From positions 39,525,242 through 39,589,241 of the forward strand of contig OX438743.1 in assembly GCA_949316235.1 (NCBI GenBank): a stretch of 64,000 nucleotides of DNA, read 5' to 3'. This document shows positions 520 to 55,970 of the stretch, piece by piece (positions within the stretch are counted from its first letter, which is position 1; each line of letters opens with the position of its first letter). Source of the DNA: Oegoconia quadripuncta (lineage: Eukaryota > Arthropoda > Insecta > Lepidoptera > Autostichidae). The notes under the pieces are model-generated. The model was given only the letters and a program-made list of their open reading frames with translations, was not told where the DNA came from and made no database searches. The translations under genes were made by a program, and so were the position numbers.

Positions 520-838
520 GTGAGCACTGAGCCAAGCGGGCGGCGGGCGTCTTGATTTGTTTGGTTTTTTATTTGGTGAGGTGAGTGATTCTTGGATCAG
601 AGTGTCGATAAGGGGTCACTGAGAGAATTTGAAAGACAAGTTATTCTGAGTTGTAAAAATAAAAATTTAACCTAGCCGAACAACAGTGTCGGATTTTACT
701 ACGTCTTTTCTCTCAGTGCTCCCTTGACTACAATCCAACCCTTTTTTCTAAGTGCCCCCCTAATCCAACCGCGTTTTCCTTAACCATAATGTTGGGTATC
801 TGTTATTATAGGTACTTTTGCAACATAGCAGAGACAGA
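520..838 (+). promoter_or_regulatory. Putative 5' leader of the SAM-domain gene, with an intron
   Basis: A donor-like GTGAGTG at 581 and an acceptor-like TTATTATAG ending at 811 would remove 231 bases and place a 27-base untranslated stretch before the ATG at 839. The part before 581 is GC-rich. Transcription start and core promoter cannot be fixed from sequence alone. Confidence 0.25.
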
Positions 839-917
839 ATGGACACAATGGAACTAGCATCGGTATCTTTAACTCTGGAGACATTAGGTCTCCAGGAATA
901 TATTGACGTGTTTGCTG
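839..917 (+). CDS. SAM-gene exon 1 (first half of SAM domain)
   Basis: It encodes residues 1-26 plus one base, starting MDTMELAS. A second in-frame ATG lies three codons on. The donor is G|GTATGT. The single leftover G joins AG of the next exon to make Glu, restoring an uninterrupted SAM helix. Confidence 0.65.
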
Positions 918-3900
918 GTATGTTACAATAGGGCCTACCTACCTATCTTTTACTATCCCTCATAAAAAAGTAAAGACGGAGCATCAATATAATGACAAGT
1001 GAAGTCACTTTTTAAGCACGTGGTGCGAGTTATCGGTGCGCACTGCGCGCAATACCACAGCAACAGAATCCTAAAAAGGAAAGCCATTCCTTAAAAGAAT
1101 TTAATTTAATTGATGAGCATGGTTTTGGCGTGTTGTGTGAGCGGAAACCGTGTAAATAGGCGCACGCCGCACGGCTTGTGACTGCTTTTGGCTTCACCTC
1201 TTCGGTGTGGCGCGCTTTGTCTTACTTTTTTTTTGGTCTGAGCCCATAATAAATAAGACCTTTTGTTTTCCGCGTTTTTGTTCTCAGAGAATGAAGTTGA
1301 CCATACTGCGTTGCTCTCATTAGAAGATGCTGAGTTAAAAGAGCTCATTCCAAAGATAGGTCATAGGATAAAATTAAAGAATTACATAAAATCATACAAG
1401 GAAAGTAAACATGGAGAAGTAACTTTCACGGTAAGTTTTACCTACCCATATAATTATCATAAAAGTCTGCTTTTGTAAATTAATGTTTTTTGAAAGTAAA
1501 ATAACCAAATATAAAACAAACAAATTGATTTACAGTTTGTGGATAACTTGGATACACAATGTTTAGAATCTACACCTAGTGATAATATTAGCCTACAGAC
1601 AACTAGTGATGAAACTACCCTGAATGACCGTGTGACCGAAGAACCATTAAACAACCAAATAAGGAGAGATGATAACACAAATGTAAGTGATATTTATATA
1701 CATAACTACGAGGCCTATGACATTTTGTTGCTGTTGTGATGCTATCTTGCTCTAATTTTCTGAAATTTTCAAGGATTTAAAAAGAATCATTGTGATAATC
1801 GAAAAAAGAGGCCGCTATAAAAACTTCAAAGTAACTTTACCCATGTTCTAAAAATATTTTAATTTTGAAACCTTACATCGTTTTATAGATCTAGGTGCCC
1901 AAAGAAAATATTTTTATAGGACACGGATAAAGTTACTTTGTAGTGGCCTCTTTTCGATTATCTATCACAATGAATCTTTTTAAATCTTTACAAATTTCAG
2001 AAAATTAGAGCAAGATCATCACAACAGCATTAAAATGTAATATGCCTTTAATGTAGCTCTGAAAATGTTGAAACTGTTTAACTTCACCTCCCATTGCTAA
2101 ATACTAAAGGCTTCCTGGGCGGCTGATCTGGAGGTTCTGCATTCACTTTGTGCGACTATCCTGTTTGGTTAGGAAATTGCTGATTGTCCGAAAAGTAACA
2201 CTTACAAAGTGCTTCCTCCTCATCAGTCCGTAGCTGTATACATCCCACTACTAAATACCTTCCCTTACAAAGTGCTTACCTTACAAAGTTTTTACTAACT
2301 TTACAATTTATATACATTGAATTCATTTTACAGGTAAAAATGTTGGTAAACAATATGGTGGTTAAGTAACACTGTGAGCTACCATTTTGGCATACCAAAC
2401 ACAAAGCAAAAAAAAAGTAATATCTGGGTTAATGAATTAGAAATTTATATTACAATACAATGTCAATATGTCGCTGGTAATGTCAAAAATGCGAAATATA
2501 ATAGTAGTTTATGCGACTGCCGTATAAAAAGGGGATATTAAGACACAAGTGTCTGTGTATTTGTAATGTGTTGCTGTCTGAATGGGTCAAATAAATTATG
2601 CTTATTCTTTATTACCGTGATTTGGAAAGCATGTTAAGCTGTGGGATCTACATTCATTCGTTAAATGAGCCATATCAGTTTGGCGGCTTAATAACTCTTG
2701 ATACCTGTTTATGTGTAAATATGAAACTAATGTGGACCCGTGGACATTCTAGTAAATTAAATTGAAATAATATAAGCCTGCAATATTATTTGTTTGTTGC
2801 AGGTAACTGATATAATAAATGTACGTAATTTCAATTAATCCATGCATTACATTGATAAAGTACCTGTGTAATTGCTTGTAGAAAATATAGTTAGTCCTGC
2901 ATTGCATAAAAATGTAAGTACCTATTAGTTATTAGTTACATTTCATTTTAGATGCATTTAAAAAATTTGCATGTGTACTTTTTAACACGTTTTTATTAGC
3001 TTCATCTGTAACTAGTTACTTGACAAACAAAATGTTGGACCTAGTCTTTCCAGTCCGATGAATTCAACCGACCAACTGAAAGCGATAAACTTTTTTTTGT
3101 TCTCAATGATAATGCATATTTATATATGTATATAGATGAGCTTTGATTGGGGCTACTGGCCTCGTCATCTCTTATCCCAAAGCAATATTAGGTATTTTTT
3201 TAGCTGACTGTTGATATTACAATAGTATTTAAGTATACGTAGTAATTTTTCTATATTGATAATACTTATCAATAGTTTTCATAAATTGTGCTATCAATAG
3301 TATAGATTAAAAACTATCGATAGTATCGATACTATAGTTTTTGCAATATTTTGAGGAATAATTGTCTAATTGCATTGTAAATTTTTCACTGAACACTATT
3401 TTTCTTCTGACAAATATACTAACAGTGATAGTATCTACAAGAGAAATCGCCAAAGAAAGACTCAAATTGCAGTTAAAATCAATTTGGATTTTGGACAGAT
3501 CATTTGCGCGCACACCAATGTATGCACTGTTTTCACAAATTGGACCGTAGAGCATACTGTTTTTCTTAGTTTAGTTTAAGTACAAACAACAGGGGCGCGT
3601 TCCGAGCCTGCATCCGGACATTAATTTGTAGTAAGTTAGTGTTTCGTTTTTACCATTATCAGAATTAGTCTTTTTTAATCTATGCAAATGTCAATAATTA
3701 GAGCGAGATAGCAATGAAAATGTAAAAGGGCTCTTAAAACTCTAAAGCTAGCTTATATTATTTTATAATTGAATTTTAAAATATTGGTAAAGTATCATTA
3801 AACGAACATATCCTTGACATGAAATGAACGTATCCCTGCACAAAAGTTTTTCGCAATAGTTTTGTCTCTTTCAGTGCCAAGGTATTAGTAAATATGTGTT

Positions 3901-6900
3901 TCTTTCTAAAGTTGCATTTGTCAATGTCATTGCTCATGTCGAAGTATCGCCCACAGAACACTATTACACCTAGCGGAGGTTATATTCATTCATTTATTTA
4001 GATTCTCTTTAGAGTTTGGTTATCGGTTCTCTGCACAAGTAAAGAGCGGCAAATTTAAATAAATAAGGGTAGGAAACACTAACTATAATCGGAAAAAAAT
4101 AGTTTGATACTTTCTTTATTTATTAATTTTTGATATACTAAATTGAACATTTGAAACTATTCTGTCATTTTAAATGAATGTATGGTAAGATGTAACTTTC
4201 ATTGAAGCCCTGTGTGTATCAGCAAGTTGATATATTAGTTATTCATAAAAGCGATTTACATTTTTCCAAAATAGGTGACAAAAAATACATTACCTACTTA
4301 CAATCTTTTTAAACTCGTAATTTTCAAAATGTCTTTCACTAACTTTATAATCATGCACATATTCATAATGTTTCATTACAATTGGTCTATTAATTCACTC
4401 AGGCTAGTTTAGAAGGGAGAGCTATCCTTCGTGAAGGACACCTAAACGCTGGCTTATTGCAAGAAGGATCACGCAGAAAATTAAGCCAGCTCCTCATCCA
4501 ATGGATCCTGGAAAATCATCCTGAGAAAAGGATTACTCCGCAAGAATTCAATGAACTTGCACAAAGCATTGTAAAACTATTTCCAAAAGAAAGTGCTGTT
4601 GTTTATTACTCAGCATATTCTGCCGCTCCAGATAAAGGTGTCAATAAGAAGAACTCAAGTGGCAAACTTTACGAGAGCTATATTAATAGAAGAAGGAAAT
4701 TTCGAGAAAGTGGATGCCTTCCTGCATCGAGCCGTTCATCTTCAACAAGTACCATTAGTTCTACAAGAGTTGCGAATGAAACAGAAAATAATACTGATGA
4801 TGATGATAATAGTATGTAGAAACTTGTATTTTTAGTGAGTTTTAATTATTTTTATTTCCACTGGAAGCACTTAAAAATCATATTACATTACATATTACAG
4901 ACAATCTGCGTAATAAAGAGAGCTTGACATGGTTAAACAATAATGTAGAACCATGGAAAACAGTAGAAGAAAAGTGGGATGAGACTACTCAAGAGCGTCT
5001 GAATAATAGTGGTGAAGGAGATATTGCTAACTACTTCAACAACTACCCAGCTTTAAAGCAGCCTGATGGGTATACATTGGTAAGTAATTCCTTTATTCAT
5101 TTAACCAACTTTATAAAATGAAAATTCTCAATTTAACTATATTTTTAACACACTTATAGAGTTAAAATCTACGAACTGGATTTTGACCCTCTTTTAGTTG
5201 TTGAATAGATTTCATATGTTAAAATTTCTGAAAAAAAGGTCCCTTTATTTTTTTTTTATTTAAACAAGCTTTTATTAATTAAAATTAACTTGAAATATTG
5301 TATATTATGTATGTTCGGGTCATAATCTTGTAAGGCAAATTTAAACCACTTCCTCTAAACTTAGGACTTCAAAATTTTGCATGCTGCTTTAGTTCCGATA
5401 ACAATATATTGAAATGATAGAAATTACCTGATGCTGCAGCCAGGATCGTCTCCTTATGAGGGCAATCCTTAACTGTTAGTAGCACGGACACGAAACTTAG
5501 TATATACATTTAATTTTGATAGCTAAACATGATCTTGACCATGAAACTGATGCTGCAGCCAGGATTGTCTCCTCATGAGGCTCGACGGTTAGTAGCACGG
5601 ACATGAAACTTTGCACATTTATGATTAATTTTGAATTTTGATGGTTATACATGGTCTTTATCATAAACTGATGCTGCAGATAAATCAGGTTACTAAAAAG
5701 AAAAAGACTTCATATAAAAGTTTAGGTAAGCTGTCAGACAGAATTAGGATTGTTCATTTCACATTGCCAAAGTAACAAGATTTAAGTACAGAAAATAGTT
5801 TTTTTTTTCAAGATCTTATTTAAAATCTATGATATTTGTGAATTGTGATATAAATTAAAGCAATTTTGTCTACGAGAAGTAGATGGTAATGGGTTTTTAT
5901 AGTAGATTGTTGACTAATAGCCTGCGCAAACGAGGGACTTTTTGTCCGCGTCTGTCCGCGAACTCCGTGTGAGTAAAAGGTACGGAAGCATTCTCTATCC
6001 TTTTTACTCACATGGCTTTCGAAAAAAGTCCGCGGACAAAAGTCCCTCGTCTGCGCAGACTTTAAGAGGATAATGCAGTATCTTATGTTGCGGGCAACAT
6101 ATTGAATCTCGAGCGTAACAAAGGATTTTAATGTTAACTCCCGAGAGTAGTACCTTGACTGTATCACTAGCTGGGAATAGATACCCTCTTTCATTCCGCA
6201 CATCCCCCGTATGTGACCACCTTTAAGTAGAAAGAATGAGCTTGTTAAACTATGCTTACTGGATGGTATAATATAATTTTCACTTCTCATGCTCTGAAAG
6301 TGCTTATTTGTGCAGGATATAGGCTGCACAAAATCGATTTTTGTGCACAAAGTGAGTATCTACTCATAAATGTATCTATATTAAAGCAAAGAAAATGAGC
6401 CATACAGCCAAAAAACAATAAAAAGTTCGTAGACAGAATTTGTTATTTTTTTATATTTACTTTAATTTATTTGCCTTATGTGTTTTTTAAGACACAACAC
6501 AATTTCCTTCAGTATTCAAAACTGTACTAATTTCACTTTTAATTAAAGAAATGTTATGTTATACTACTGTTTTATTTCCTTGCAATCGAAGTGAAAAGCA
6601 GAGTTTATAACTCGTCCACAAAACCATTTTATCCTCGACATTACTATCAGTAAAAGTCTCGGATACAAATGGTTCGTTTTGTGCACTTGTTGTAAAATCT
6701 ACTATTTTCCACATAATTTACTGTGTTTTTGTTTAATTTACAGCTTCTACGCGACTTCAAACATTTGTACCCTGAAAAAGAAACCTGTCTCTTTTCGAAC
6801 ATCTTACTGAAAAAAGAAGAAATAATCAGTTACGCAAAGCAGAAGTTGGGAAAGACACGTGATAAAACATTAAGAAGCAATGTATCGGAAATCTTACAGC

Positions 6901-8877
6901 TTTTGAATGGTAAGTGTACATACACATAATAATTTATGGAGTTGTTTTATCAATTTTGTTTATTTACCTATACATACTATCTATTTTCAGTTACTTTTTA
7001 ACTGACTTCCAAAAAAAGGAGGACATTATCAATTCGAGAGTATGTTTTTTTTTTGTGTGTGTATGTTACGCTCCGACAATTGTGAACCGATTTCAACGAA
7101 TTTTTTTTTATAAGAAGGGTATAGTTCACGGGTGGTCCCATTTTAATTTGGTGCAGATCGGATCATAACCGTCTTCAAAAAAAAAGGAGGAAGATTCGAA
7201 GTCTGTTGTTTTGCCAATTTTTGGCGGGTGATTATTAGTAGTCTGTTACCGAATGGTGCAAACGGGATCCTATGACTAAACCTACTCTTTCTGTATGTCT
7301 GTCTACCTTTACCACAGAATAGTGCCTTTACGTCCTACTTACCTTTAAACATATGTCTTGTTCTCGATCCATAATAGATAGTTTGAAATTTCACTGAATG
7401 TGTTATTCCCCAATAAGTATAAACTGGTGTCGATTCGGATGTACAACGAACTAAACTAAATTTAAATTATATCTATCCTTTTCTAACCACTAATATATGA
7501 AAAGGATGACATATAATTAAGTCCTGTCAAATTAAGTTTAAGGATCAACACAAGCACTGACTTCTTCAATAATTTTAGGTGTACACCTAGCGACGTCACG
7601 ACTAAAATACTATGGAGCGACTTGTTTTGACAGCTCTTAACTTAATTTGACAGGACTTATTTTAAATCGTCCCTTTCATGTTAATAGTGTTAGAAAAGGA
7701 TATAATATTTGATTTAACATGCCGAAGTTAATGCATATCCTCAGGAACACGGTACTTAGTGGGAATCCCCGTGATAAATGAGGGGATTATTTGTCACTTC
7801 TAAATTTGAGTGGCAGTTACAAAGTACCTTGGAAAAACAAAACGTTTTTTCTTCAGAAACCTTTCTCTAGTGTCAAGACTGTTGCTCTAGCACAGTGTTT
7901 CCCAACCTTTTTTAGGCCATGCCCCACCTTAACATTTCTAAAATTTTTATGCCCCCCCCTACATAATTTTTAACCTTTAAAAATGTTTTGTTCCCTTAAG
8001 AAATATAAATGATAAGTTTTAGGAAGAAGAAGTTTTCTTAAGAAATATAAAATTGTTATCAAAACATCGCAAGTAAGATTTCATTTGCATTGCATTTAAA
8101 TAACCCAAAGCGATAGGGTTAAAGTTGTGTCGAGTCCATTTTTAAATTGCCCCCCTTAACTATCAAATTGCCCCCCTGTGGGGCGTGGGCCCCACGTTGG
8201 GAAACATCGCTCTAGCAGCAGCCGCCTTCAGAGATCTAAATTTTCTTTTTTCAATAATAATTTATTGTGTAGTGTAGTTGTGTAGCGCTAGTCCGACTCG
8301 CACTTGGCCGGTTTTTTACTTGCAGTGGGTTTTTGTATTTACTTTTTTACAATTTTTACAGTTAAAACTAAGTATTTTATATTTTTTACCAGAAAACGAC
8401 GAAGAAAACGGGAAAAACCTGGCTTTGATTCTACTGGCATACACAATCAACATATCTCCACTTAGAAAAAAAAAAGGCAAACCAAACTGGAAACCTTCAA
8501 GAGCAGAATCACTCAACGGATACATAATGCAAGTAGCTTCAGAAGCTGAGGTCACAAGCTCCATAATATCAAAAAGAGAAAAATTACAGAAACTTGAAAG
8601 GACAATGCAGCCATACGTAATCTATGTGGGCACATCAGTAGTTGATATTAAAGCTGCCTATGTTGTTATCAATGACACAGTATATCATTTTACTAAATTG
8701 ATAACTGCTGTTGATTGTGCTTTTAAGATATTTCAAGCAACGGGGGCATGTTACCCAGAAGAATCTGCAGATATTTGGTTATTCATACAAGTGGGATTTT
8801 ATAAAATTAAAACAAAGTATGACCGATACACCCAAGCCGTCAATACACTTTTGACCGACCTCGGATTAATGTTCTAA
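839..8877 (+). CDS. SAM-domain protein, seven coding exons, gene 1 of a two-gene transposon-like unit
   Basis: Seven exons (839-917, 1288-1430, 1536-1682, 4403-4811, 4901-5079, 6744-6909, 8393-8877) join in phase without a stop into 535 residues. Residues about 9-68 form a sterile alpha motif: a LGLQEYIDVF-like first helix, DHTALLSLEDAELKELI, and a final IGHRIKL helix. A Thr/Ser/Asp-rich linker follows. The middle exon has a basic YINRRRKFRE motif after a helical region. The last exon holds a conserved-looking block (QPYVIYVG, then AVDCAFKIFQ) that I recall from animal proteins encoded next to TNP2-like transposases. SAM domains oligomerise or bind protein or RNA, so an accessory transposition factor is inferred. 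The stop lies 2 bases before the ATG of the transposase-like ORF. A host gene is the alternative. Confidence 0.68.
1288..1430 (+). CDS. SAM-gene exon 2 (second half of SAM domain)
   Basis: The acceptor is TTCTCAG and the donor GTAAGT at 1431. It encodes ENEVDHTALLSL through KESKHGEVTFT and ends in phase 0. A damaged duplicate of this exon lies near 11584. Confidence 0.7.
1536..1682 (+). CDS. SAM-gene exon 3 (polar linker)
   Basis: The acceptor is TTTACAG and the donor GTAAGTG at 1683. It gives 49 codons rich in Thr, Asp, Asn and Ser (FVDNLDTQCLEST to RRDDNTN). A second copy of this exon lies at 11817-11965. Confidence 0.65.
1711..2050. mobile_element. Foldback element in intron 3 of the SAM gene
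   Basis: Imperfect inverted arms of about 130 bases (roughly 1711-1845 and 1925-2050) share blocks such as GCTGTTGTGATG, TTGCTCTAATTTTCTGAAATT and AAGTTACTTT. The shape fits a non-autonomous foldback MITE. A related single end seems present near 3690-3720. No clear target duplication was identified. Confidence 0.6.
2051..4402. other. Rest of intron 3, no gene recognised
   Basis: AT-rich sequence with no convincing exon. Short open frames here have no recognisable domain. The only structure noticed is the single-end similarity to the preceding foldback element at about 3680-3735. Confidence 0.4.
4403..4811 (+). CDS. SAM-gene exon 4 (helical region and basic motif)
   Basis: The acceptor is CACTCAG and the donor A|GTATGT at 4812. 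It gives 136 codons starting ASLEGRAILREG and including LIQWILENHPEKRITPQEF, an aromatic VVYYSAYS stretch and the basic YINRRRKFRE motif. It ends in an acidic DDDDN run. Confidence 0.65.
4901..5079 (+). CDS. SAM-gene exon 5
   Basis: The acceptor is ATTACAG and the donor GTAAGT at 5080. It encodes about 59 codons including LTWLNNNVEPWKTVEEKW and PALKQPDGYTL. The two leading bases complete the codon split with exon 4. No named domain is recognised. Confidence 0.62.
5395..5690. repeat. Tandem copies of a GCTGCAGCCAGGA repeat
   Basis: Two full copies and a partial copy of a unit of roughly 125-150 bases share CTGATGCTGCAGCCAGGAT, TCTCCT(T/C)ATGAGG and TTAGTAGCACGGACA. The same family recurs near 40615-40905 and 41165-41345, so it is a dispersed element with internal repeats. 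Its class is not identified. Confidence 0.55.
5920..6060. mobile_element. MITE-like foldback, about 140 bp
   Basis: Outer arms at 5920-5952 and 6030-6060 share TGCGCA, ACGAGGGACTTTTTGTCCGCG and its complement. An inner pair, GTGAGTAAAAGG and CCTTTTTACTCAC, continues the hairpin. It lies in intron 5 of the SAM gene. Confidence 0.7.
6744..6909 (+). CDS. SAM-gene exon 6
   Basis: The acceptor is AATTTACAG and the donor G|GTAAGTG at 6910. It encodes 55 codons with LLRDFKHLYPEKETCLF and a Lys-rich helical tail ending EILQLLN. The split G joins AA of exon 7 to give Glu. Confidence 0.65.
7000..7260 (+). repeat. Dispersed LINE-like fragment
   Basis: It begins ACTGACTTCCAAAAAAAGGA and contains TGTGAACCGATTTCAACGAA and a GGTGCAGATCGGA motif, a signature I associate with widely dispersed lepidopteran retroposon tails. 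A weaker relative is at 50950-51030. Confidence 0.45.
7464..7712. mobile_element. MITE-like foldback, about 250 bp
   Basis: A perfect 21-base inverted core (7518-7538 and 7639-7659, TAAGTCCTGTCAAATTAAG) extends outward with imperfect pairing to arms of about 75 bases. It lies in intron 6 of the SAM gene. Just left of it, 7427-7455 carries a single end of the GGTGTCGATTCGG family described at 44419. Confidence 0.68.
7885..8217. mobile_element. hAT-type MITE with 8-bp target duplication
   Basis: The element at 7893-8209 (317 bp) is bounded by CTCTAGCA at 7885-7892 and again at 8210-8217. Its ends, CAGTGTTTCCCAACC and the complement of TTGGGAAACATCG, are near-matching inverted repeats of hAT type. 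Poly-C tracts (GCCCCCCCC) lie inside both ends. It interrupts intron 6 of the SAM gene. Confidence 0.85.
8393..8877 (+). CDS. SAM-gene exon 7 (C-terminal block and stop)
   Basis: The acceptor is TTTTTACCAG. It gives 160 codons, starting ENDEENGKNLALILL with a basic LRKKKGKPNWKPSRAES segment, then TMQPYVIYVGTSVVDIKAAY and AVDCAFKIFQATGACYPEE, ending DLGLMF and TAA at 8875-8877. The next ATG follows after only AC. An upstream ATG at 8278 opens the same frame but lies in the intron. Confidence 0.68.
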
Positions 8878-8879
8878 AC

Positions 8880-11354
8880 ATGTTTACATGTTATTATTGT
8901 AAAAAGAACATTTCAACTGTACGTGCATTGATTAGTCATATAAGATTCTTTTGTAAATCTACTGGTACTAATTCTGACTATCGATGTGGTGAGCAAGATT
9001 GTTATCGTCATTTTTTTTCATTTAGATCGTTTAAAAAGCACTTACTCAGGGATCATAGCTTAATATCGGAAACTTCGCAATTGGAAAACAGTGGGAGTGT
9101 AGTGGAATCAACGAGTACTGATGTTATATCAGTAATACCTTCAACTAGTGCTGCACCAGAAACAACTATTAGAGCAAACCTCAAGTCTACTATCATGCAA
9201 ACAGACGATAATTCTCTTGTTTACCATGCTTCGAACTTAATATCTTCGTTGTATAGTAACCCCATAATACCCCGTAAAACTATTCAAACTTTAATAGAAA
9301 ACCTTCAAACATATTTCTCCAAATCTCGGGAGACTTTGTTGCAAAAGTTTTACGACTTAGTACCTTCAAATGAAATGACCACCAATGTGAATAACGCTTT
9401 CAAAAGAACTCTTGATGTTCATTGTGAAATTTTTGATGTTTTTGATACGGAACATAAACGTTTTCAATATTTCAAACAAGTGGGATCTTATGTAGAGCCT
9501 AGTGAAATAGTCATAGGTCATCGTTTAGAGACTAAAAATACATGTACTGGTTTGTCATTAGTACCAGTTAATTGCACGGAACAATTAATGCCATTTAAAC
9601 ATAATTTAGAACGTTATTTTTCATCAGAAAATATTTTGAAGGATACCTTAGATTATTTAAACGTTTTGCGAGATAGTCGCTTTGGCTCTGAGAACATTGT
9701 GCAGGGTACAGTGTGGACAAAAAAACAACTTTGCATGAAACATGATGAAATAATTTTGCCATTAATAATTTACTTTGATGATTTCGAGATTGGTAACCCT
9801 TTAGGAAGTCATGCAGGGATTCACAAATTAGGTGGTGTTTATGCATCTGTACCATGTCTTCCTCCCAACCGTGTTTCACTTTTGCGCAACATTTTCATTT
9901 TGGCTCTCTTTCATTCATCAGATAGAACTTACTTTGGAAATAACTTAGTTTTTCAGAAAGTTTTTGAGTTACTCAATGACCTAAAAAATAATGGCATAAA
10001 TATTGACACTGAAGTATTTAAAGGTGTAATCAAATTTCATCTAGCATGTGTCACAGGAGACAACTTGGGTTTGAATGCGATGCTAGGGTTTGTTGAAAGT
10101 TTCTCTGCCAATCGCCCATGCAGAATTTGCAATGCTAATAAGGAACAAATTAAATCTTTGGTTTATGAAAACATTTCATTGTTGAGAAACAACCATAATT
10201 ACGCGGGCGATTTAATATTACGAGACATTTCATTAACAGGCATTAAAGAAAAATGTGCATGGTTGGCTGTAGAAGGATTTGACTTATTTGAACACGTCGC
10301 AGTCGATGTTCTACACGATTATCTTGAAGGATGTTGTCGTTACGTAATGACGTTTGTTATAACAAATTTAGTTCTAACTCGGAAACTAATTTCTTTTGAA
10401 AATTTGTCTACGAGAATACGATATTTTAATTACGGACCCGATTCGTCTTCTAAACCGTCGAATGCAATCTCAAAAGAGGGATCACATATAAAGCTCAAAT
10501 GTTCAGCTTCTGAAATGCTTACACTCGTTCGTTATTTTGGCCTTATTGTTGGACGTAATGTACCAGATGAAAATGAAGTTTGGTTGTTGTACATAAAATT
10601 AAGACAGTTATTGGACAAACTATTGAGTCATAGAATTTATGAAAGTACCGTAGACCAAGTTAAATTCTTAGTAGCCGAATTAAATGAGCTTTATCGAAAT
10701 TTGAGTGGAACAGACCTGAAACCAAAATTTCATTTTTTGACACATTATCCACGAATGTTTCAGAAGTTTGGGCCTTTAATACAAATATGGACAATGAGGT
10801 TCGAAGCGAAACATCGTTTATCTAAATTTGTTGCAAGAGCATCACATAGCAGAGTAAATATTTGCAAAACCATAGCTATAAAGCATCAGTTGATAATGAA
10901 TGATTTCTTTTTAAAAAATCAATGTACAAGTATACATTCAATAACAACGGGTAAAAAGAAAAAGTTAACAGAAATCGAGATGACCAATGTTAGAATTAAT
11001 TTTAGCCTGGATGTAAACCTAGATAAGTGCTGTTCGTTAACATGGGTAAAAATTAACAGTATAAAATTTCAGTTATCCTCTGTTATAATCCCAGATATTT
11101 CAGAATCTACTTACTATCCAGTATTTGCAGAAATACAAAACATTTATATGAGTAATGAAAATAAAATAATATTTCAATGTCTCTTATTAGAATGCATTGA
11201 TTTCGATCAACATTATTTTGCGTATGAGGTTAGAAAAACAACTGACAACCATTTGTTTTATAGCTACGGTAATCTAATTTCGCCTGTACCTTGCACAATG
11301 ACTGTTATGTCAAATTTAAAGCAATACATTACTGTTCGGTGGACCTTAGACTAA
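8880..11354 (+). CDS. CACTA/EnSpm (TNP2-like) transposase with N-terminal zinc fingers, gene 2 of the unit
   Basis: An uninterrupted 824-codon frame. The N terminus has two Cys/His knuckles: C4, C7, H20, C25 and C36, C41, H54, H59. After a Ser/Thr-rich linker comes a body typical of TNP2-type transposases: IYFDDFEIGNPLGSHAGIHK (about 296-315), GDNLGLNAMLGFVESF (about 393), a CRIC knuckle (about 413), VDVLHDYLEGCCRYV (about 475-489), KPKFHFLTHYPRMFQ and MRFEAKHRLSKF. D300 or D301, D394 and D476 or E483 are candidate catalytic acids. It would cut and paste DNA in the nucleus. The frame being intact suggests recent activity or selection. Whether it is translated from the same mRNA as the SAM gene is unknown. 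No CACTA-type terminal repeat was found. Confidence 0.75.
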   Translation: MFTCYYCKKNISTVRALISHIRFFCKSTGTNSDYRCGEQDCYRHFFSFRSFKKHLLRDHSLISETSQLENSGSVVESTSTDVISVIPSTSAAPETTIRANLKSTIMQTDDNSLVYHASNLISSLYSNPIIPRKTIQTLIENLQTYFSKSRETLLQKFYDLVPSNEMTTNVNNAFKRTLDVHCEIFDVFDTEHKRFQYFKQVGSYVEPSEIVIGHRLETKNTCTGLSLVPVNCTEQLMPFKHNLERYFSSENILKDTLDYLNVLRDSRFGSENIVQGTVWTKKQLCMKHDEIILPLIIYFDDFEIGNPLGSHAGIHKLGGVYASVPCLPPNRVSLLRNIFILALFHSSDRTYFGNNLVFQKVFELLNDLKNNGINIDTEVFKGVIKFHLACVTGDNLGLNAMLGFVESFSANRPCRICNANKEQIKSLVYENISLLRNNHNYAGDLILRDISLTGIKEKCAWLAVEGFDLFEHVAVDVLHDYLEGCCRYVMTFVITNLVLTRKLISFENLSTRIRYFNYGPDSSSKPSNAISKEGSHIKLKCSASEMLTLVRYFGLIVGRNVPDENEVWLLYIKLRQLLDKLLSHRIYESTVDQVKFLVAELNELYRNLSGTDLKPKFHFLTHYPRMFQKFGPLIQIWTMRFEAKHRLSKFVARASHSRVNICKTIAIKHQLIMNDFFLKNQCTSIHSITTGKKKKLTEIEMTNVRINFSLDVNLDKCCSLTWVKINSIKFQLSSVIIPDISESTYYPVFAEIQNIYMSNENKIIFQCLLLECIDFDQHYFAYEVRKTTDNHLFYSYGNLISPVPCTMTVMSNLKQYITVRWTLD

Positions 11355-11406
11355 TGAGGAAGAAAATTACCTGACGTTGGTGCCGATTCGGTTTTCCACA
11401 AACTAA

Positions 11407-11980
11407 TGATGAGCATGGTTTTGGCGTGTTGTGTGTGCGTAAACCGTGTAAAAAGGCTCATGGCTTGTGACTGTTTTTGGCTTCACCTCTTCGGTGTGGC
11501 GCGCTTTGTCTTACTTTTTTTTTTGGTCTGAGCCCATAATAAATAAGACCTTTTGTTTTCCGCGTTTTTGTTCTCAGAGAATGAAGTTGACCATACTGCG
11601 TTGCTCTCATTAGAAGATGCTGAGTTAAAAGAGCTCATTCCAAAGATAGGTCACAGGATAAAATTAAAGAATTACATAAAATCATAAAGGAAAGTAAACA
11701 TGGAGTAGTAAGTTTTACCTATCCATATAAATATCATAAAAGTCTGCTTTTGTAAATTAATGTTTTTTGAAAGTAAAATAACCAAATACCTATAAAACCA
11801 ACAAATTAATTTACAGTTTGTGGATAACTTGGATACCCAATGTTTAGAATCTACACCTATTAGTGATAACATTAGCCTACAGACAACTAGTGATGAAACT
11901 ACCCTGAATGACCGTGTGACCGAAGAACCATTAAACAACCAAATAAGGAGAGATGATAACACAAATGGAGAAGTAACTTT
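11407..11980 (+). pseudogene. Broken duplicate of SAM-gene exons 2 and 3
   Basis: From TGATGAGCATGGTTTTGG on, this segment repeats 1111-1690 at high identity, covering intron 1, exon 2, intron 2 and exon 3. Exon 2 has a one-base loss making TAA after the KNYIKS codons, and it lacks the AAGTAACTTTCACG segment at its donor. Exon 3 is preserved with one extra codon but has lost its donor: AAT is followed by GGAGAAGTAACTTTCAC (the sequence missing from exon 2) and then the satellite array. It cannot encode a working SAM domain. Confidence 0.85.
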
Positions 11981-11983
11981 CAC

Positions 11984-14900
11984 CTCATACATGTTAGGCT
12001 TGTTTTGGCATAGCAGCCCAAGAAGCCTCTTAAAGACGGCCTGAGATAAATCAGTGTCTGCAATATGTAAAACTTAACAGGGTAGGTCGACCAAAACCCA
12101 CCTGTCGTGTGATGCTTCCCGGCACGACGACGGACGATTTTTTTTGTAATTTTTATGGTACATATTCTGGTTTTTAAATGTACTTAGTTGTACCGTAAAA
12201 ATAAAAGTTTGCCAGGTATGGCAGAACCACAATTACTACCACAGGAGTACAAATATTTATTTTTACGGTACAATTATGTACAATTAAAAACCAGAATTTG
12301 TACCACAAAAAATTTCAAAAAATCGACCGTCGTCGTGACAGGAAGCATCACACGACAGGTGGGTTTTGAGTTTACCTTTGGTTTGGAATATGAAGATGTC
12401 ATGTCGAGATGAATATTTAGGTTAATTAACTTGGCGTTGATGAAAAATCTACTGTGGGCGTATATTATGTTATTGTACAGTAGCTCTTTTTTAGTCAACC
12501 ACCCTTAAACTCATACATGTTAGGCTTGTTTTGGCATAGCAGCCCATGAAGCCTCTTAAAGACGGCCTGAGATAAATCAGTGTCTGCAATATGTAAAACT
12601 TAACAGGGTAGGTCGACCAAAACCCACCTGTCGTGTGATGCTTCCCGGCACGACGACGGACGATTTTTTTTGTAATTTTTATGGTACATATTCTGGTTTT
12701 TAAATGTACTTAGTTGTACCGTAAAAATAAAAGTTTGCCAGGTATGGCAGAACCACAATTACTACCACAGGAGTACAAATATTTATTTTTACGGTACAAT
12801 TATGTACAATTAAAAACCAGAATTTGTACCACAAAAAATTTCAAAAAATCGACCGTCGTCGTGACAGGAAGCATCACACGACAGGTGGGTTTTGAGTTTA
12901 CCTTTGGTTTGGAATATGAAGATGTCATGTCGAGATGAATATTTAGGTTAATTAACTTGGCGTTGATGAAAAATCTACTGTGGGCGTATATTATGTTATT
13001 GTACAGTAGCTCTTTTTTAGTCAACCACCCTTAAACTCATACATGTTAGGCTTGTTTTGGCATAGCAGCCCATGAAGCCTCTTAAAGACGGCCTGAGATA
13101 AATCAGTGTCCGCAATATGTTTTACCTGTCGTGTGATGCTTCCCGGCACGACGAAGGCCGATTTTTTTTTAATTTTCATGCTACAAATTCTGGTTTTTAA
13201 ATGTATACTTAATTGTACCGTAAAAATAAAAATTTGTACTCCTGTGGTTTTCCAGTAAATTGTCTTCTTGGCACGAACACGCTGTTTTCAAGCTATCTTA
13301 AGCTATAATAGTATATAAAGCTGGATTTTACACAATAAAAAGTATTTCCAGATAAATGTGCCAAGAAGTATGCTACCTGGCAGGACCACACTTTACTCAA
13401 ATACCATAGGAGTACAAATTTTTATTTGTACGGTACAATTATGTACATTTTAAAACCAGAATTTGTACCACAAAAAATTTCAAAAAATCGACCGTCGTCG
13501 TGCCAGGAAGCATCACACGACAGGTGGGTTTTGAGTTTACCTTTGGTTTGGAATATGAAGATGTCATGTCGAGATGAATATTTAGGTTAATTAACTTGGC
13601 GTTGGTGAAAAATCTACTGTGGGCGTATATTATGTTATTGTACAGTAGCTCTTTTTTAGTCAACCACCCTTAAACTCATACATGTTAGGCTTGTTTTGGC
13701 ATAGCAGCCCATGAAGCCTCTTAAAGACGGCCTGAGATAAATCAGTGTCCGCAATATGTTTTACCTGTCGTGTGATGCTTCCCGGCACGACGAAGGCCGA
13801 TTTTTTTTTAATTTTCATGCTACAAATTCTGGTTTTTAAATGTATACTTAATTGTACCGTAAAAATAAAAATTTGTACTCCTGTGGTTTTCCAGTAAATT
13901 GTCTTCTTGGCACGAACACGCTGTTTTCAAGCTATCTTAAGCTATAATAGTATATAAAGCTGGATTTTACACAATAAAAAGTATTTCCAGATAAATGTGC
14001 CAAGAAGTATGCTACCTGGCAGGACCACACTTTACTCAAATACCATAGGAGTACAAATTTTTATTTGTACGGTACAATTATGTACATTTTAAAACCAGAA
14101 TTTGTACCACAAAAAATTTCAAAAAATCGACCGTCGTCGTGCCAGGAAGCATCACACGACAGGTGGGTTTTGAGTTTACCTTTGGTTTGGAATATGAAGA
14201 TGTCATGTCGAGATGAATATTTAGGTTAATTAACTTGGCGTTGATGAAAAATCTACTGTGGGCGTATATTATGTTATTGTACAGTAGCTCTTTTTTAGTC
14301 AACCACCCTTAAACTCATACATGTTAGGCTTGTTTTGGCATAGCAGCCCATGAAGCCTCTTAAAGACGGCCTGAGATAAATCAGTGTCCGCAATATGTTT
14401 TACCTGTCGTGTGATGCTTCCCGGCACGACGAAGGCCGATTTTTTTTTAATTTTCATGCTACAAATTCTGGTTTTTAAATGTATACTTAATTGTACCGTA
14501 AAAATAAAAATTTGTACTCCTGTGGTTTTCCAGTAAATTGTCTTCTTGGCACGAACACGCTGTTTTCAAGCTATCTTAAGCTATAATAGTATATAAAGCT
14601 GGATTTTACACAATAAAAAGTATTTCCAGATAAATGTGCCAAGAAGTATGCTACCTGACAGGACCACAATTTACTCAAATACCATAGGAGTACAAATTTT
14701 TATTTTTACGGTACAATTATGTACATTTAAAAACCAGAATTTGTACCACAAAAAATTTCAAAAAATCGACCGTCGTCGTGACAGGAAGCATCACACGACA
14801 GGTGGGTTTTGAGTTTACCTTTGGTTTGGAATATGAAGATGTCATGTCGAGATGAATATTTAGGTTAATTAACTTGGCGTTGATGAAAAATCTACTGTGG

Positions 14901-15040
14901 GCGTATATTATGTTATTGTACAGTAGCTCTTTTTTAGTCAACCACCCTTAAACTCATACATATTAGGCTTGTTTTGGCATAGGAGCCCATGAAGCCTCTT
15001 AAAGACGGCCTGAGATAAATCAGTGTCCGCAATATGTAAC
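11984..15040. repeat. Tandem array of palindrome-bearing 526/639-bp units
   Basis: The landmark CTCATACATGTTAGGCTTG recurs at 11984, 12510, 13036, 13675 and 14314, and with one mismatch at 14953. That makes two units of 526 bp, three of 639 bp and a partial last one. Each unit contains an inverted pair (GTGTGATGCTTCCCGGCACGA and its approximate complement) around an AT-rich core. In the 639-bp units the core differs and carries an inner pair, CTTCTTGGCAC and GTGCCAAGAAG. Units are nearly identical, so the amplification is recent. Apparent 74-codon frames here are artefacts of the repeat. Confidence 0.9.
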
Positions 15041-15062
15041 ACTTACCAGGGCAGGGTTGTAT

Positions 15063-16297: not shown

Positions 16298-16635
16298 GGA
16301 CTATCTACTTAGGATAAGGTTGCAGCTACAGGGTATCATGTTCTTTCTTAATTATGTACTGTGACAGCCTACTTATGTTACTATTGCTGTTATAATGCGC
16401 AAAAGTATCTTAACAGGCGATCACAGTACATAAGTATGAAAGAACATGATGCGCTGTAGCTGCAACAGTATCCTAAATAGGTGGTCACAGTACCTAAGTA
16501 AGAAACAACATGACGCCCTGTAGCCGCAACAGTTCGGTAAGTAGCCAGCTGCAGTACATAAGTACGATGCAACATGATGTCATGTAGCCGCAACAGTACA
16601 TTAAGTAGACGGTCACAGTACTTAAGTAGCAAACA
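16298..16635. repeat. Diverged 64-65-bp repeats with an inverted first copy
   Basis: CAGTAC(A/C)(T/-)AAGTA landmarks recur at about 16423, 16488, 16552 and 16616, each followed by an AACATGATG and TGTAGC(C/T)GCAACAG block. The segment 16298-16366 carries the same blocks in reverse complement (TTGCAGCTACAGGGTATCATG), so the array starts with a head-to-head hairpin. It grades into the 85-bp satellite. Confidence 0.72.
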
Positions 16636-18547
16636 GCATGCTGTACAGTATCTGCACCATGATGTAAGTCGGCTGCCTACTTACGATAGAGAGGCAGGCA
16701 CATTACATAACTAGCAAACAGCATGCTTTACAGTATCTGCACCATGATGTAAGTCGGCTGCCTACTTATGATAGAGAGGCAGACACATTACCTAAGTAGC
16801 AAACAGCATGCTGTACCGTATCTGCACCATGATGTAAGTCGGCTGCCTACTTACAATAGAGAGGCAGGCACATTACATAACTAGCAAACAGCATGCTCTA
16901 CAATATCTGCACCATGATGTAAGTCGGCTGCCTACTTACGATAGAGAGGCAGGCACATTACATAACTAGCAAACAGCATGCTGTCCAGTATCTGCACCAT
17001 GATGTAAGTCGGCTGCCTACTTACAATAGAGAGGCAGACACATTACATAAGTAGCAAACAGCATGCTCTGCAGTATCTGCACCATGATGTAAGTCGGCTG
17101 CCTACTTACAATAGAGAGGCAGACACATTACATAAGTAGCAAACAGCATGCTATGCAGTATCTGCACCATGATGTAAGTCGGCTGCCTACTTACGATAGA
17201 GAGGCAGGCACATTACATAACTAGCAAACAGCATGCTTTACAGTATCTGCACCATGATGTAAGTCGGCTGCCTACTTACGATAGAGAGGCAGACACATTA
17301 CCTAAGTAGCAAACAGCATGCTGTACTGTATCTGCACCATGATGTAAGTCGGCTGCCTACTTACAATAGAGAGGCAGGCACATTACATAACTAGCAAACA
17401 GCATGCTCTACAATATCTGCACCATGATGTAAGTCGGCTGCCTACTTACAATAGAGAGGCAGGCACATTACATAACTAGCAAACAGCATGCTGTCCAGTA
17501 TCTGCACCATGATGTAAGTCGGCTGCCTACTTACAATAGAGAGGCAGACACATTACATAAGTAGCAAACAGCATGCTCTGCAGTATCTGCACCATGATGT
17601 AAGTCGGCTGCCTACATACAATAGAGAGGCAGACACATTACATAAGTAGCAAACAGCATGCTATGCAGTATCTGCACCATGATGTAAGTCGGCTGCCTAC
17701 TTACGATAGAGAGGCAGGCACATTACATAACTAGCAAACAGCATGCTTTACAGTATCTGCACCATGATGTAAGTCGGCTGCCTACTTATGATAGAGAGGC
17801 AGACACATTACCTAAGTAGCAAACAGCATGCTGTACTGTATCTGCACCATGATGTAAGTCGGCTGCCTACTTACAATAGAGAGGCAGGCACATTACATAA
17901 CTAGCAAACAGCATGCTATGCAGTATCTGCACCATGATGTAAGTCGGCTGCCTACTTACGCTAGAGAGACAGGTACATTACACAAGTAGCAAACAGCATG
18001 CTGTACTGTATCTGCACCATGATGTAAGTCGGCTGCCTACTTACAATAGAGAGGCAGACCAATTACCCAAGTAGCAAAAAGCATGCTGTACGCTATTCGC
18101 ACCATAATGTAAGCAGCCTGCCTATTTACGATAGAGAGGCAGACACATTACCTAAGTAGCAAACAGCATTCTCTACAGTATCTGCACCATGATGTAAGTC
18201 AGCTGCCTACTTACAATAGAGAGGCAGACACATTACATAAATAGGAAACAGCATGCTCTGCAGTATCTGCACCATGATGTAAGTCGGCTGCCTACTTACA
18301 ATAGAGAGGCAGACACATTACATAAGTAGCAAACAGCATGCTTTGCAGTATCTGCACCATGATGTAAGTCGGCTGCCTACTTACGCTAGAGAGACAGGTA
18401 CATTACACAAGTAGCAATCAGAATGCCACATACTATCCGCACCAGGATGTAAGTCGGCTGCCTACTTACAATAGAGAGGCAGACTCATTACACAAGTAGC
18501 AAACAACATGCCATACAGTATCTGCCCTATGATGTAAGTCGGCTGCA
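16636..18547. repeat. 85-bp satellite, about 23 units, with 510-bp higher-order repeat
   Basis: TCTGCACCATGATGTAAGTC recurs exactly every 85 bases from 16651 (16736, 16821, 16906 and so on) to about 18521. Variant positions before this motif (GCTTTACAG, GCTGTAC, GCTCTACAA, GCTGTCCAG, GCTCTGCAG, GCTATGCAG) recur in the same order every six units. Blocks starting at 16651 and 17161 are complete and a third starts at 17671. Units after about 17900 are more diverged. No protein coding is implied. Confidence 0.95.
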
Positions 18548-19128
18548 TATCGCCTATATCAGTATATACGTAAATTTGACAGGAATACCAGCTACTTAGC
18601 AATAAGTAGCCCGCGCGGGTTACTTAAGTAAGTAGCAAAAAGCTCCAACAGGGTTTACGTGATCCGGCACATGACGAAATTAATGAGCCGGGCTACTGAC
18701 TGTCAACACAGTAAGCGTAATGGATCCGGCTACAAGTGTACTGTTGGGCCTCCCGGTTACGTAATTTAAGTAGGTGGGCGGGGGAAATTTTTCTCAGTGC
18801 ATCTAAACTATTCATGTTGCAAAAATTTTTAATTACACGTTTTGATTCGTAAAACATTACATGCTTATTTTTCTTATCTTAAAAGCAAATAGGTATACGG
18901 CCTATTCTTTCATTTCTTTGGAAAGTTAGGTATTTTGTTTATTTATGTTTTTTTTTTTTTTTTTATTATTAAAAACTGGTTTTGCGTTATGTATATCAAT
19001 AATTTAATCAAATGGAGTTATTATGACACAAAACCACCGACAGAAATGTCGAATAGCCTGACGATCAACAATATTGTACGAAGAAAAAGATATTGTTAGT
19101 TTAATACCTTATAATTTTATTTTTTCAG
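18548..19128. other. Right flank of the satellite, no gene recognised
   Basis: It holds short satellite-like pieces (CTACTTAGCAATAAGTAGC, TTACTTAAGTAAGTAGC) and a GC-rich stretch to about 18790. AT-rich sequence with a poly-T run near 18950 follows. Confidence 0.4.
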
Positions 19129-19971: not shown

Positions 19972-20395
19972 ACAGCGCCATCTAGTTCCACACTAAGCAA
20001 CTAGGCTTGTATTATGGATACCAGATGTTTGATAAACTTTTTTTTTTTTATGCACGACGATTTATAACCCTGATGTTAAGTGAAGGTGAGGTCGAAGGTG
20101 GAAGCGTACTGACCCCGAAACCCCAACACATTTGGGGTACTGGCTATCTTATCTCTGACAACCGGATCACAACAATGCTATTAACACTGCTGCTTGGCGG
20201 CAGATTTAGATAAGAGGGTGGTAGCTAGCCAGGCGGACATTTAAAATGCCCTACCACCAACCAAACCAAGTACTTAAACATGTACCCCGCTGGGGATCTA
20301 ACCCGCGACCTCCGAATCGTAAACCCAATGTTGTTTACATTGAGCCATGGAGGTGGTTAAACAAACTACACAAATACATTTTTTTTTGTAAATAA
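19972..20395 (-). mobile_element. SINE family 2 copy split by a SINE family 1 insertion
   Basis: 19972-20030 matches the 3' part of the SINE2 copy at 43972 (CGCCATCTAGTTCCACA, TGGATACCAGATG), and 20360-20395 continues it (AAACTACACAAATACATTTT). A complete SINE1 lies between them. A short TAAAC repeat at both joints may be the target duplication. Confidence 0.7.
20037..20357 (-). mobile_element. tRNA-derived SINE, family 1 (nested)
   Basis: Read on the minus strand it starts with a tRNA-like head (GGCTCAATGT A-box region and GGTTAGATCCC-like B box). The body has GGTAGGGCATTTTAAATGTC, a palindromic TGTTGTGATCCGGTTGTCAG part and ATCAGGGTTATAA, and it ends in an A tail seen as poly-T on the plus strand. 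Confidence 0.8.
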
Positions 20396-20526
20396 ATACT
20401 AATATAAATTATAATTATAGTTAAAGCTGTCTCTTCGTGTGAGAAAGAGGATTCACAGCAATACGTGACGCCAGAATGATCACTTAAAATACTGAACAAC
20501 TATTACACCACAGTAGCAGTAGTTTC

Positions 20527-20838
20527 TTTTTTTATCCACAACGGGTTAGCACTTGACTTCAATCACACCTGATGTTAAGTGAAGATGAGGCCGAAGGTGG
20601 TAGCGTACTGACACGGAAACTCCATCTTATTTGGGGGACTGGCTATCTTATTTCTGACAACCGGAACACAACAATGCTATTAGCATTGCTGTTTAGCGGC
20701 AGATTTAGATAAGATGGTGGAAGCTAGCCAGACTACCACCAACTAAACCGAGTACTAAATATGTACCCCGCTGGGGATCGAACCCGTGACCTCCGAAACG
20801 TAAACCCAATGTTGTTTACATTGAGCCACGGAGGCGGT
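20527..20838 (-). mobile_element. tRNA-derived SINE, family 1
   Basis: A full-length copy: tRNA-like head at 20760-20838 (minus-strand CCTCCGTGGCTCAATGTAAA and GGGTTCGATCCCCAGCGGGG), body, and poly-T at 20527. The head carries the extra ACAACATTGGGTTTAC stretch that the copy at 49131 lacks. Confidence 0.85.
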
Positions 20839-21054
20839 TTTATAGTGTACAATTGGCACTATTTTAGCATAATTTGTTGAGATTATCAAAAAGCTATTTT
20901 GATTTTGAACAACTTTGTGTGTTCCAGCATAACGCACATTAATTTAGATATACCAAAAGCATTGCATTTGAATTAAGATATACTTCGCCCGAATCTCAAA
21001 GCACTGACTATTAAGTTACCCTACCTAGTCTCCAACCTAACCCTATATCTCTCT

Positions 21055-21840
21055 CTCTCAGTCTCTCAGTTTTTTACAGGATACATTTCGGGGAGTGTGC
21101 GTTGGAATTACATAATCTTATTCCACCGTCACCCTTCCATCTTCGGACCACTAGGCGTGGGGAGGGATTCCACCCGTATATAGTTAATATACCGAACAGC
21201 CAATGCATGGAACTCCCTTCCGGCGTCAGTCTTTCCTGAATCCTACTGTAACGTGACGGTATTGCGTCTCGTTGGTGATTTTAGTTAGTAATCTTTTTGT
21301 TCTTTTTCCTTTTCGTTTCTCTATATTTAAATTCAAAATCCTATTTCGAACTCAGACGGCCGAACAAAACAACGTCATTATATTTTCAACAGTTCTAAAG
21401 CTCGGACGTTTCTGTCAAACTTATTATATTATAACCCTATTCTATTATATTTCCGCTGAGTGCGCTGGAGCTTCCAGTATCATAAAATTCATTATCATTT
21501 GTAAAGGCATTGTTTTATAACAGTGCCTTTTTATTACAATACAATATTCAAGTGTTCCTGATTTTTATTATTTATTGCGGCCTACTCCTGAACAATCAAT
21601 TGGAAGTCTGGTTCAGGAGTAGTGCCACATTGGCGCCCCACGTTGGGCGCTAATGCGGCCTACTCCTGAACAATCAATTGGAAGTCTGGTTCAGGAGTAG
21701 TGCCACACTACAACCTTGGGATCTTCAAGAGCAGAGTGAATAGGCATTTACTGAGATCGCGTGCTTCATCTCCGACCACGTCGTCACTTTCCATCAGGTG
21801 AGATTGTGGTCAAACGCGAATCCAGTCAATCATAAAAAAA
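21055..21840 (+). mobile_element. Jockey-like LINE 3' fragment, interrupted by an LTR remnant
   Basis: 21060-21246 and 21708-21840 together match the C-terminal reverse-transcriptase region seen intact on the minus strand at 40060-40431 (CTTTCCTGAATCCTAC joined to AACCTTGGGATCTTCAAGAG). The tail has GATTGTGGTCAAACGCGAAT and ends in an A run. The reading frame is broken. Confidence 0.75.
21243..21711 (+). mobile_element. LTR-retrotransposon remnant: LTR, primer-binding-like site, second LTR end
   Basis: The insert starts TGTAACGTGACGG at 21247 and ends GTGCCACA at 21707, flanked by CTAC at 21243-21246 and 21708-21711. A 383-bp LTR (21247-21629, TG..CA) is followed by TTGGCGCCCCACGTTGGGCG, which resembles a tRNA primer-binding site. 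A repeat of the last 53 bp of the LTR follows (21577-21629 equals 21655-21707). All coding sequence is gone. Confidence 0.75.
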
Positions 21841-22553
21841 AAATATATTGAAATACTCTTATTAAATATCAATGATGTCAGTATTATAAAATTCTTTTGT
21901 AAGTAGATACTTCAAACTGACTTCAAAAGGAATTGTAATACCATACATATAATAAAAAGACAATGTCAAGTAGCAAATTGCCGGTTTGTGGAGTTTATTC
22001 ATGAAATATTCAGGTTCTTTCCCCTTTATTAGCGGCGGATTGAGTTACAAGTTCTAAACTGTGGTGTCGGTAAGTGACATTGCATTATAAGTATAACAAG
22101 GTACCTAATTACTATGTTGGCTTCATACGTTCCATAGAGTCTCAGCTGATATGCGTAGAATAGGTATTTATATATAACAAAAGCTATTTACGAAAAAAAT
22201 GGTCCATTTTTAATAAAGGACAGGTGCCACTTTTACTCCCTAGTGAGCGTCATTTTTCTTCTTTGCCTTCCTCTATCTTTTAGCTAGGTATAATTAAAAA
22301 ATTTAGAAGACCCCGGAGAATACAAATGATTATACCTATCATCCAGATAAACCGAACCAACAATTTTTAAAGTTAAATATCATCGCAACGGCTTATCCGA
22401 TTTCTATAAAATATGGCTTATAAGCCTATAGAAAGAAATTTCTATAGAAAGTATCGCGAAAGACGATCATTTAAATATACCAAAACCATAACTTATTAGT
22501 AATCTGTGCCAAAACACTGTGTTAAAGCTACATATCCTCGAAACTGCTTAACT

Positions 22554-22798
22554 ATTTTTTTTATGCACAACGGGTTAGCACTTGACCTCAATCACACCTG
22601 ATGTTAAGTGAAGATGAGGCCGAAGGTGGAAGCGTACTGACCGGGAAACCCAAATATTTGGGGAACTGGCTATCTTATCTCTGACAATCGGAACACAACA
22701 ATGCTATTAACATTACTGTTTGGCGGCAGATTTAGATAAGATGTTGGTAGCTAGCCAGGCAGACATTTAACCACTACACCAAACAGGTCGTCAATTAA
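22554..22798 (-). mobile_element. Chimeric SINE: family 1 body with family 2 head
   Basis: The body and A tail (22554-22766) match SINE1. The 5' end on the minus strand (GACGACCTGTTTGGTGTAGT, 22768-22795) matches the tRNA-like head of SINE2. The join falls at AAATGTC of the SINE1 body, so the SINE1 tRNA head is absent. Confidence 0.7.
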
Positions 22799-22993
22799 CC
22801 ACTATTACAGAAGTATACGTCTAATTCTCAATTAAGTGGTGCAGAAATCCGTTCATGCAGGAAGTCCATGGTTGAGCTCTTCTCTATTGGATTCTCTTGG
22901 ATCTGAAGATAGCTTTCAACATAAATTTTGGACGCTCCATAGGATCGAATTATAAAATCGCGGCCACGAAGATTGGCGTTCTCTTTAAGGTCA

Positions 22994-55389: not shown

Positions 55390-55970
55390 TCACAATCTTT
55401 TCTTTGATAACGTAGTTTGGTCTATTAATTTCTTTGACTGCTTCAATAAAACATTGGACTTGAATAACAATTTATCCATCCTTCTGTTTTGTAAGTAATC
55501 GGCCAATATCTTAAATCCAAACCTTAGCAGACATGAAACAAGAATGAACGAGGTAAAAATAGTTAACAGAAGAAGTAAACATACGTCTATTAGGTAATAT
55601 TGGAAGATATTCAAATCTTTTGCAGGCGACTGTAGGTGGTAGGCACCTTTATGCCTTATTACGTACTCCGTCCAATATATTGCTCTTTCTAAAGGAGTTT
55701 CCTTCTGATCTCTTAATAACAGTTGTCTCCTTTTCACGTCTACTCTATACTTAGGTTCGGTTATAACTTCTTTGATGGCTCTATATAGTTTTTCAGATGT
55801 TAAATATTGTAGATCCAATTTTTTCGCGTAACCATCGAGCTCTGCTTTAGCAGCGTTTGCGTCGTGATCGCAGAAGACAGGAATGGAGACTATGGGGACA
55901 CCGTGGTAGACTGTTTCGTACATGCTCAGCAAACCGCCGTGTGTGATGAATGCTTTAATTTTTGAATGAC
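55390..55970 (-). CDS. UGT last exon (signature, membrane anchor, KKRL end)
   Basis: The minus-strand acceptor is TTGTTTTCAG. It encodes (G)HSKIKAFITHGGLL through WTEYVIRHKGAYHLQSPAKD, the anchor and SKKRL, with stop TGA at 55392-55390. The frame stays open 5' into the intron for 27 codons but is not expected to be translated there. Confidence 0.93.

Follow-up and report, generated by a model that had tools for sequence, protein, structure and literature searches.

A SAM-domain gene next to a RAG1-fold transposase gene in a probable two-gene CACTA-like transposon of the moth Oegoconia quadripuncta

Results

The window analysed here is a stretch of 64,000 nucleotides (nt) of contig OX438743.1 of the moth Oegoconia quadripuncta (assembly GCA_949316235.1, positions 39,525,242 to 39,589,241, forward strand), and all coordinates refer to it. 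It carries, one directly behind the other, a seven-exon gene for a SAM-domain protein and a single open reading frame (ORF) for a transposase. Together they very probably represent an intact copy of a large two-gene CACTA-like DNA transposon of the CMC clade. The genes and their parts are the following.

839..917, plus strand: SAM exon 1, start of the SAM domain; GT donor, in phase; proteins of other species without a match
1288..1430, plus strand: SAM exon 2, rest of the SAM domain; matches P0121, P0122 and P0124
1536..1682, plus strand: SAM exon 3, linker; splice sites and phase only; proteins of other species without a match
4403..4811, plus strand: SAM exon 4; 58% to P0121 over 104 residues
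4901..5079, plus strand: SAM exon 5; 55% to P0126 over 65 residues
6744..6909, plus strand: SAM exon 6; 51% to P0126 over 55 residues
8393..8877, plus strand: SAM exon 7, conserved C-terminal part with the QPYVIYVG block, stop codon at 8875-8877; 63% to P0121 over 167 residues
8880..11354, plus strand: transposase ORF of 824 amino acids, starting 2 nt after the SAM stop codon
8883..9056, plus strand: two C2H2-type zinc knuckles (residues 2-59); conserved residues, and profile matches to zinc fingers of PDB chains
9207..10931, plus strand: RAG1/Transib-like catalytic core (residues 110-684); conservation and fold match
10935..11330, plus strand: BAH-like C-terminal fold (residues 686-817); structure match only

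The original prediction, made from the letters of the window, had joined seven phased exons into a 535-residue SAM protein, and this gene model holds. Each of the six introns has GT-AG borders, and the joined exons keep the frame over 535 codons and a stop; exons 2 and 4-7 are supported by proteins of other species, and the support for exons 1 and 3 consists of splice signals and phase. Residues 8-64 match the Pfam model SAM_1 at E 1.6e-9 (38.4 bits, cut-off 23). By sequence comparison the nearest solved SAM domains are those of DGK-delta, BICC1, SHANK2, ANKS and Polyhomeotic, and SAM domains of such type often form polymers.

The transposase frame, predicted as 824 open codons with C2H2-type knuckles, is equally well founded, since the longest stop-free run in 200 Markov sequences of 8 kb each was 207 codons and the knuckle residues C4, C7, H20, C36, C41, H54 and H59 are conserved. 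Across 120 homologues, D300 (9777-9779), D394 (10059-10061) and E642 (10803-10805) form a DDE triad with C414xxC417 and H618xxxH622 between the second D and the last E. A DDE triad with C(2)C and H(3-4)H in this interval is what defines the CMC clade in PMC12730594, and this catalytic layout places the enzyme there. Structure comparison matched residues 110-684 to the RAG1 fold. The window protein retains each of the 53 columns with at least 95% conservation among 88 others; this is not special to it, as the other homologues keep 98% on average. The label TNP2-like, given in the prediction, falls short at the Pfam family: Transposase_21 (tnp2) gave no match to the window protein at E<=1, and up to E 1 the sole Pfam match was zf-C2H2 (E 0.093, below its cut-off). 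Relatives reach Transposase_21 below the cut-off (best among those scanned P0054, 25.9 versus 28.6 bits), and the Pfam Plavaka model weakly matched P0091, also below cut-off. The C-terminal part has a BAH fold by structure comparison without a recognisable BAH sequence (no PDB sequence at E<=10, no Pfam BAH match in 20 members), and is therefore called BAH-like only. Scans of prokaryote and IMG/VR collections gave no relative, and the best match in a viral structure library had an E of 0.11.

The two genes remain together elsewhere in the genome (622.6 Mb, 45 contigs). The check for a partner covered the 30 best loci, taken with 1.5-kb flanks and belonging to several families, and in 27 of these the transposase is preceded upstream by SAM-partner exons; the count includes the window and its broken relative, and the three loci lacking a partner hold unreadable letters. 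SAM partner and transposase thus stay adjacent in several families of the same genome. One copy of what is here called the 59% family has exons that match partner residues 24-79, 125-231, 265-341, 320-374 and 372-534, in order before the transposase. The pairing is also seen in the weevil protein P0091, in which the C-terminal part of the partner is directly followed by the transposase; this is most simply a gene model fusing two neighbouring ORFs. In the window the last base of the SAM stop codon is 8877, and the ATG of the transposase follows at 8880 in the same exon, the transposase frame being closed upstream at 8820; the two ORFs are also adjacent in the 62% family, as judged by eye. The spliced message would hold 32 ATGs before that of the transposase, so plain scanning from a SAM promoter would hardly reach it.

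The transposase search scored 55 of 201 candidates, and all copy counts are therefore lower bounds. At least 61 matching stretches were found, and among them at least 44 frames free of stops run from residue 3 or earlier to residue 789 or beyond (39 as single rows, and five of the 55% family each split over two rows). Copies within families are near-identical, differing at 0-2 of 2,460 nt (10 copies), 0-5 of 2,463 (seven copies) and 0-2 of 2,200 (five copies); in one further family two of four copies were compared and differ at 0 of 2,484 nt. Near-identical copies on many contigs show that these related families spread recently, presumably by transposition. Open frames of more than 2,200 amino acids and an apparent 5' truncation of the 62% family were discarded as artefacts of unreadable letters.

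Beyond the two genes, the window holds the following features.

617..629, plus strand: CACTGAGAGAATT, terminal-repeat-like motif, an alternative left end or subterminal copy; 12 of 14 positions to the right end, flanks differ
11407..11967, plus strand: partial duplicate of the SAM gene, intron 1 to exon 3, 92.8%; also in the second genomic copy
11979..15055, plus strand: tandem array, 526- and 639-nt units with internal inverted repeats
16614..18546, plus strand: tandem array with a unit of 85 bp, 22.7 copies with 91% matches, ahead of the probable right end
18785..18799, plus strand: probable right terminus AAATTTTTCTCAGTG, CAGTG-type, the same end type as the sharply defined ends of two other families

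The partial duplicate is probably part of the element, since it recurs in a second genomic copy. The first part of the array at 11979-15055, whose inverted-repeat arms are long (e.g. 82 nt, 85-87% complementary), is also found in that copy. Right ends are best seen in the two other families, both of which carry a tandem array close to this end. In the 62% family, three of the 10 copies were followed downstream and share sequence to ...CTTTTTTCTCTCAGTG before they differ, while other copies of this family vary in their 3' repeats; in the 59% family the 3' end ...GGGTTACGTACTTTTTTCTCAGTG is common to three of the seven copies, which differ beyond it. Two of the 59% copies align over 18.2 kb at 99.87% and a further 1.6 kb at 99.94%, and the third over about 17.9 kb in pieces. 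All copies examined of both families (three each) end in CAGTG. The bases that follow (TA in three of three copies of the 59% family; TA, TG and CA in the 62% family) are uninformative without left ends. With its arrays and AAATTTTTCTCAGTG at 18,799, as in the other families, the window copy probably ends at this position, and the unit limits 839..11354 of the original prediction were drawn too narrowly: the element reaches well past 11,354. The array before the right end of the 62% family also has an 85-nt period, and no DNA-level match was found between it and the 85-bp array of the window. One 59% copy carries about 2.1 kb extra near its 3' array, absent from two other compared copies (L041/L020/L042 versus L043/L023/L044).

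Relatives of the SAM partner were found, among others, in the moths Scirpophaga incertulas and Spodoptera exigua and the beetles Popillia japonica and Ceutorhynchus assimilis. A profile search yielded 12 relatives at E<=1, down to E 1.7e-3 for the weakest; an earlier search, in which only the candidates sharing most words were scored, had given five. We discarded a 46-residue match to P0095 (E 0.013) as a likely chance similarity. P0129, P0131 and P0091 are 34-38% identical among themselves and 23-29% identical to the window partner, and being nearer to one another they point to at least two partner types, both in Scirpophaga. Two lineages of the SAM/transposase pair may thus coexist in one genome, that of S. 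incertulas. P0129, from this moth, is of the distant type, 27% to the window's partner over 508 residues and nearer to the beetle partners.

Upstream of the SAM gene, positions 464-501 form by eye an inverted repeat with 17-nt arms (464-480 and 485-501) and a 4-nt loop. Dispersed repeats, some with a tRNA-like GTGGGTTCGATCCCC stretch and perhaps short interspersed nuclear elements, occur in L007 and in the window near 20100-22800. On the minus strand, 55390-56052 is an open frame that resembles UDP-glucuronosyltransferases in their C-terminal part (PF00201, E 1.1e-44, over residues 27-181 of the frame), likely an exon of a host gene of this kind or a fragment of one.

Discussion

The original prediction offered a live two-gene CACTA-type element or a co-domesticated pair. 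Pairing in 27 of 30 loci, the CMC/RAG1 layout and fold and the CAGTG ends of the examined copies together fit the two-gene CACTA-type element best, and such an element has been recently active at the level of its families. Copy identity suggests that the families are live, a reading that does not extend to the window copy.

Several observations weigh against this reading and concern mainly the left end, the SAM protein and the window's own lineage. CMC/CACTA-EnSpm elements have termini of the form 5'-CAC..GTG-3' and a target site duplication of 2-3 bp. The right ends of the examined copies read CAGTG; a complete pair of terminal repeats with a target duplication is not proven, and the sequence followed in the 59% family stops short of its left end. 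The best left-end candidate for the window copy, 6,138 nt upstream of the window, agrees with the right end at 13 of 14 positions and has a CA flank on both sides, with a differing third base; one of 60 shuffles equalled it, flank included, and between this candidate and the SAM gene nothing matches the 5' part of the 59% family at DNA level. The motif at 617, which has an inverted counterpart at 706-718, is a weaker candidate. Within the window the inverted matches were AT-rich stretches of 13-16 nt only, and a scan for ends with a target duplication gave 0, versus 0-3 in five shuffles. Comparing the 10 kb upstream with the downstream side for inverted matches turned up mostly dispersed repeats, of which some contain a tRNA-like stretch. 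Folding had been proposed for both proteins: the predicted SAM-protein model is poor (predicted local distance difference test score, pLDDT, 64.7), and Foldseek and VIA-align found no fold match for it, which does not point to a new fold. Nor is the near-overlap of the ORFs general, as in the 59% family 128 nt separate the last matched SAM codon from the ATG. Finally, the scored matches include one other copy of the window lineage (93%; the next is at 62%), which covers window positions 8038-12310 at 97.5% on a different contig and is truncated and broken.

This last observation is the starting point of the most serious alternative, in which the families are mobile and the window lineage is an inactive remnant that has stayed intact through youth or luck; we regard it as a substantial possibility, somewhat short of an even chance. 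The single relative carries two stop codons, a 17-nt insertion and four small indels that shift the frame. Between the two transposases the nonsynonymous divergence (dN) is 0.012 and the synonymous divergence (dS) 0.022 (20 nonsynonymous and 10 synonymous changes, and the two stop codons), which fits neutral decay of one copy, and keeping 53 of 53 conserved columns does not set the window copy apart. Yet every disabling change lies on the other copy and none on that of the window. The partial duplicate differs from the SAM gene at 5 of 277 exon positions and 14 of 284 intron positions, gaps left out, a weak sign of constraint. The window copy fits an intact, low-copy lineage, and intactness does not prove present activity.

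Capture of both genes by the host, which would have kept them for a function of its own as a pair no longer mobile, could likewise account for an intact copy whose sole close relative seen is broken, and for the want of a proven pair of terminal repeats. The same pair is present, however, in many near-identical copies on different contigs and in several families, with CAGTG ends where examined, and the window copy itself lies among element-like features, namely the partial duplicate, the arrays and the similar right end. Co-domestication is therefore not supported and appears very improbable. That a transposon merely inserted by chance beside a host SAM gene is harder still to credit: host proteins commonly carry SAM domains, and seven exons adjoin a gene of one, but partner exons upstream of the transposase in nearly all of the 30 loci, and again in the weevil gene model, contradict it.

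Plant CACTA elements with an ORF2 and animal TRC elements are the closest known relatives of the two-gene CACTA-like element. Plant CACTA/EnSpm elements share with it a DDE transposase, a second ORF and repeats near the ends. They differ in their CACTA/TAGTG termini, where the right ends here read CAGTG; in the second ORF, which here encodes a SAM protein and lies upstream; and in that the present transposase has zinc knuckles and a BAH-like domain and stays below the Pfam Transposase_21 cut-off. PMC4158355 states that the second ORF aids transposition in some families, and according to PMC1636069 maize Spm and SmTRC1 have tandem ORFs on one transcript. For SmTRC1 the same paper describes an ORF of the Transposase_21 type, transcripts that are spliced, a region of tandem repeats and, within a transcript, a second ORF. 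The present element, likewise from an animal, resembles it in layout, with a transposase ORF, a tandem-repeat region and a second ORF. Terminal repeats of TRC elements begin with CCC in the same paper, whereas the right ends here read CACTG inward.

With RAG1/RAG2 transposons (BbRAGL) and Transib the transposase shares its fold, at 9-14% identity to RAG1 and BbRAGL. RAG is a two-protein partnership in which RAG2 carries a PHD finger; here the partner is a SAM protein instead of RAG2, and the BAH-like domain sits on the transposase itself. The C(2)C/H(3-4)H layout is also that of RAG1 and Transib, as defined in PMC12730594. Fungal CMCT elements including Plavaka, which carry TET/JBP genes according to the same paper, are likewise CMC-clade elements with an extra gene, but the gene is a different one and the elements are fungal.

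In a two-gene CACTA-like element the zinc knuckles would bind the transposon ends or the tandem arrays, and D300, D394 and E642 would cut and join DNA. The SAM protein could assemble through its SAM domain on repeats of the element or on the transposase and help to pair the ends, much as the ORF2 product of some plant CACTA families assists excision and transposition; its accessory role and its contact with the transposase are proposals. The BAH-like domain may contact chromatin, and with only 2 nt between the ORFs the message may be dicistronic or alternatively spliced. One may speculate further, though we hold it to be rather unlikely, that the element forms a transpososome of two proteins comparable to RAG1/RAG2 but with another partner: a RAG1-type transposase with its own chromatin-binding BAH-like domain, and a polymerising SAM protein coating the tandem arrays. 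As a tentative lead, SAMD3-like genes of vertebrates may descend from the accessory SAM gene of the element.

Animal CACTA-like elements are little described, and among the open-licence papers listed in our searches there was none on a SAM partner of a transposon or on a BAH-like domain of a transposase. The genome of O. quadripuncta holds intact copies, near-identical to one another, of elements that measure about 20 kb or more and encode a RAG1-fold transposase. The pair provides a testable second example of how a RAG1-type enzyme cooperates with another protein, and its DNA transposase may be one that carries a chromatin-binding domain of its own.
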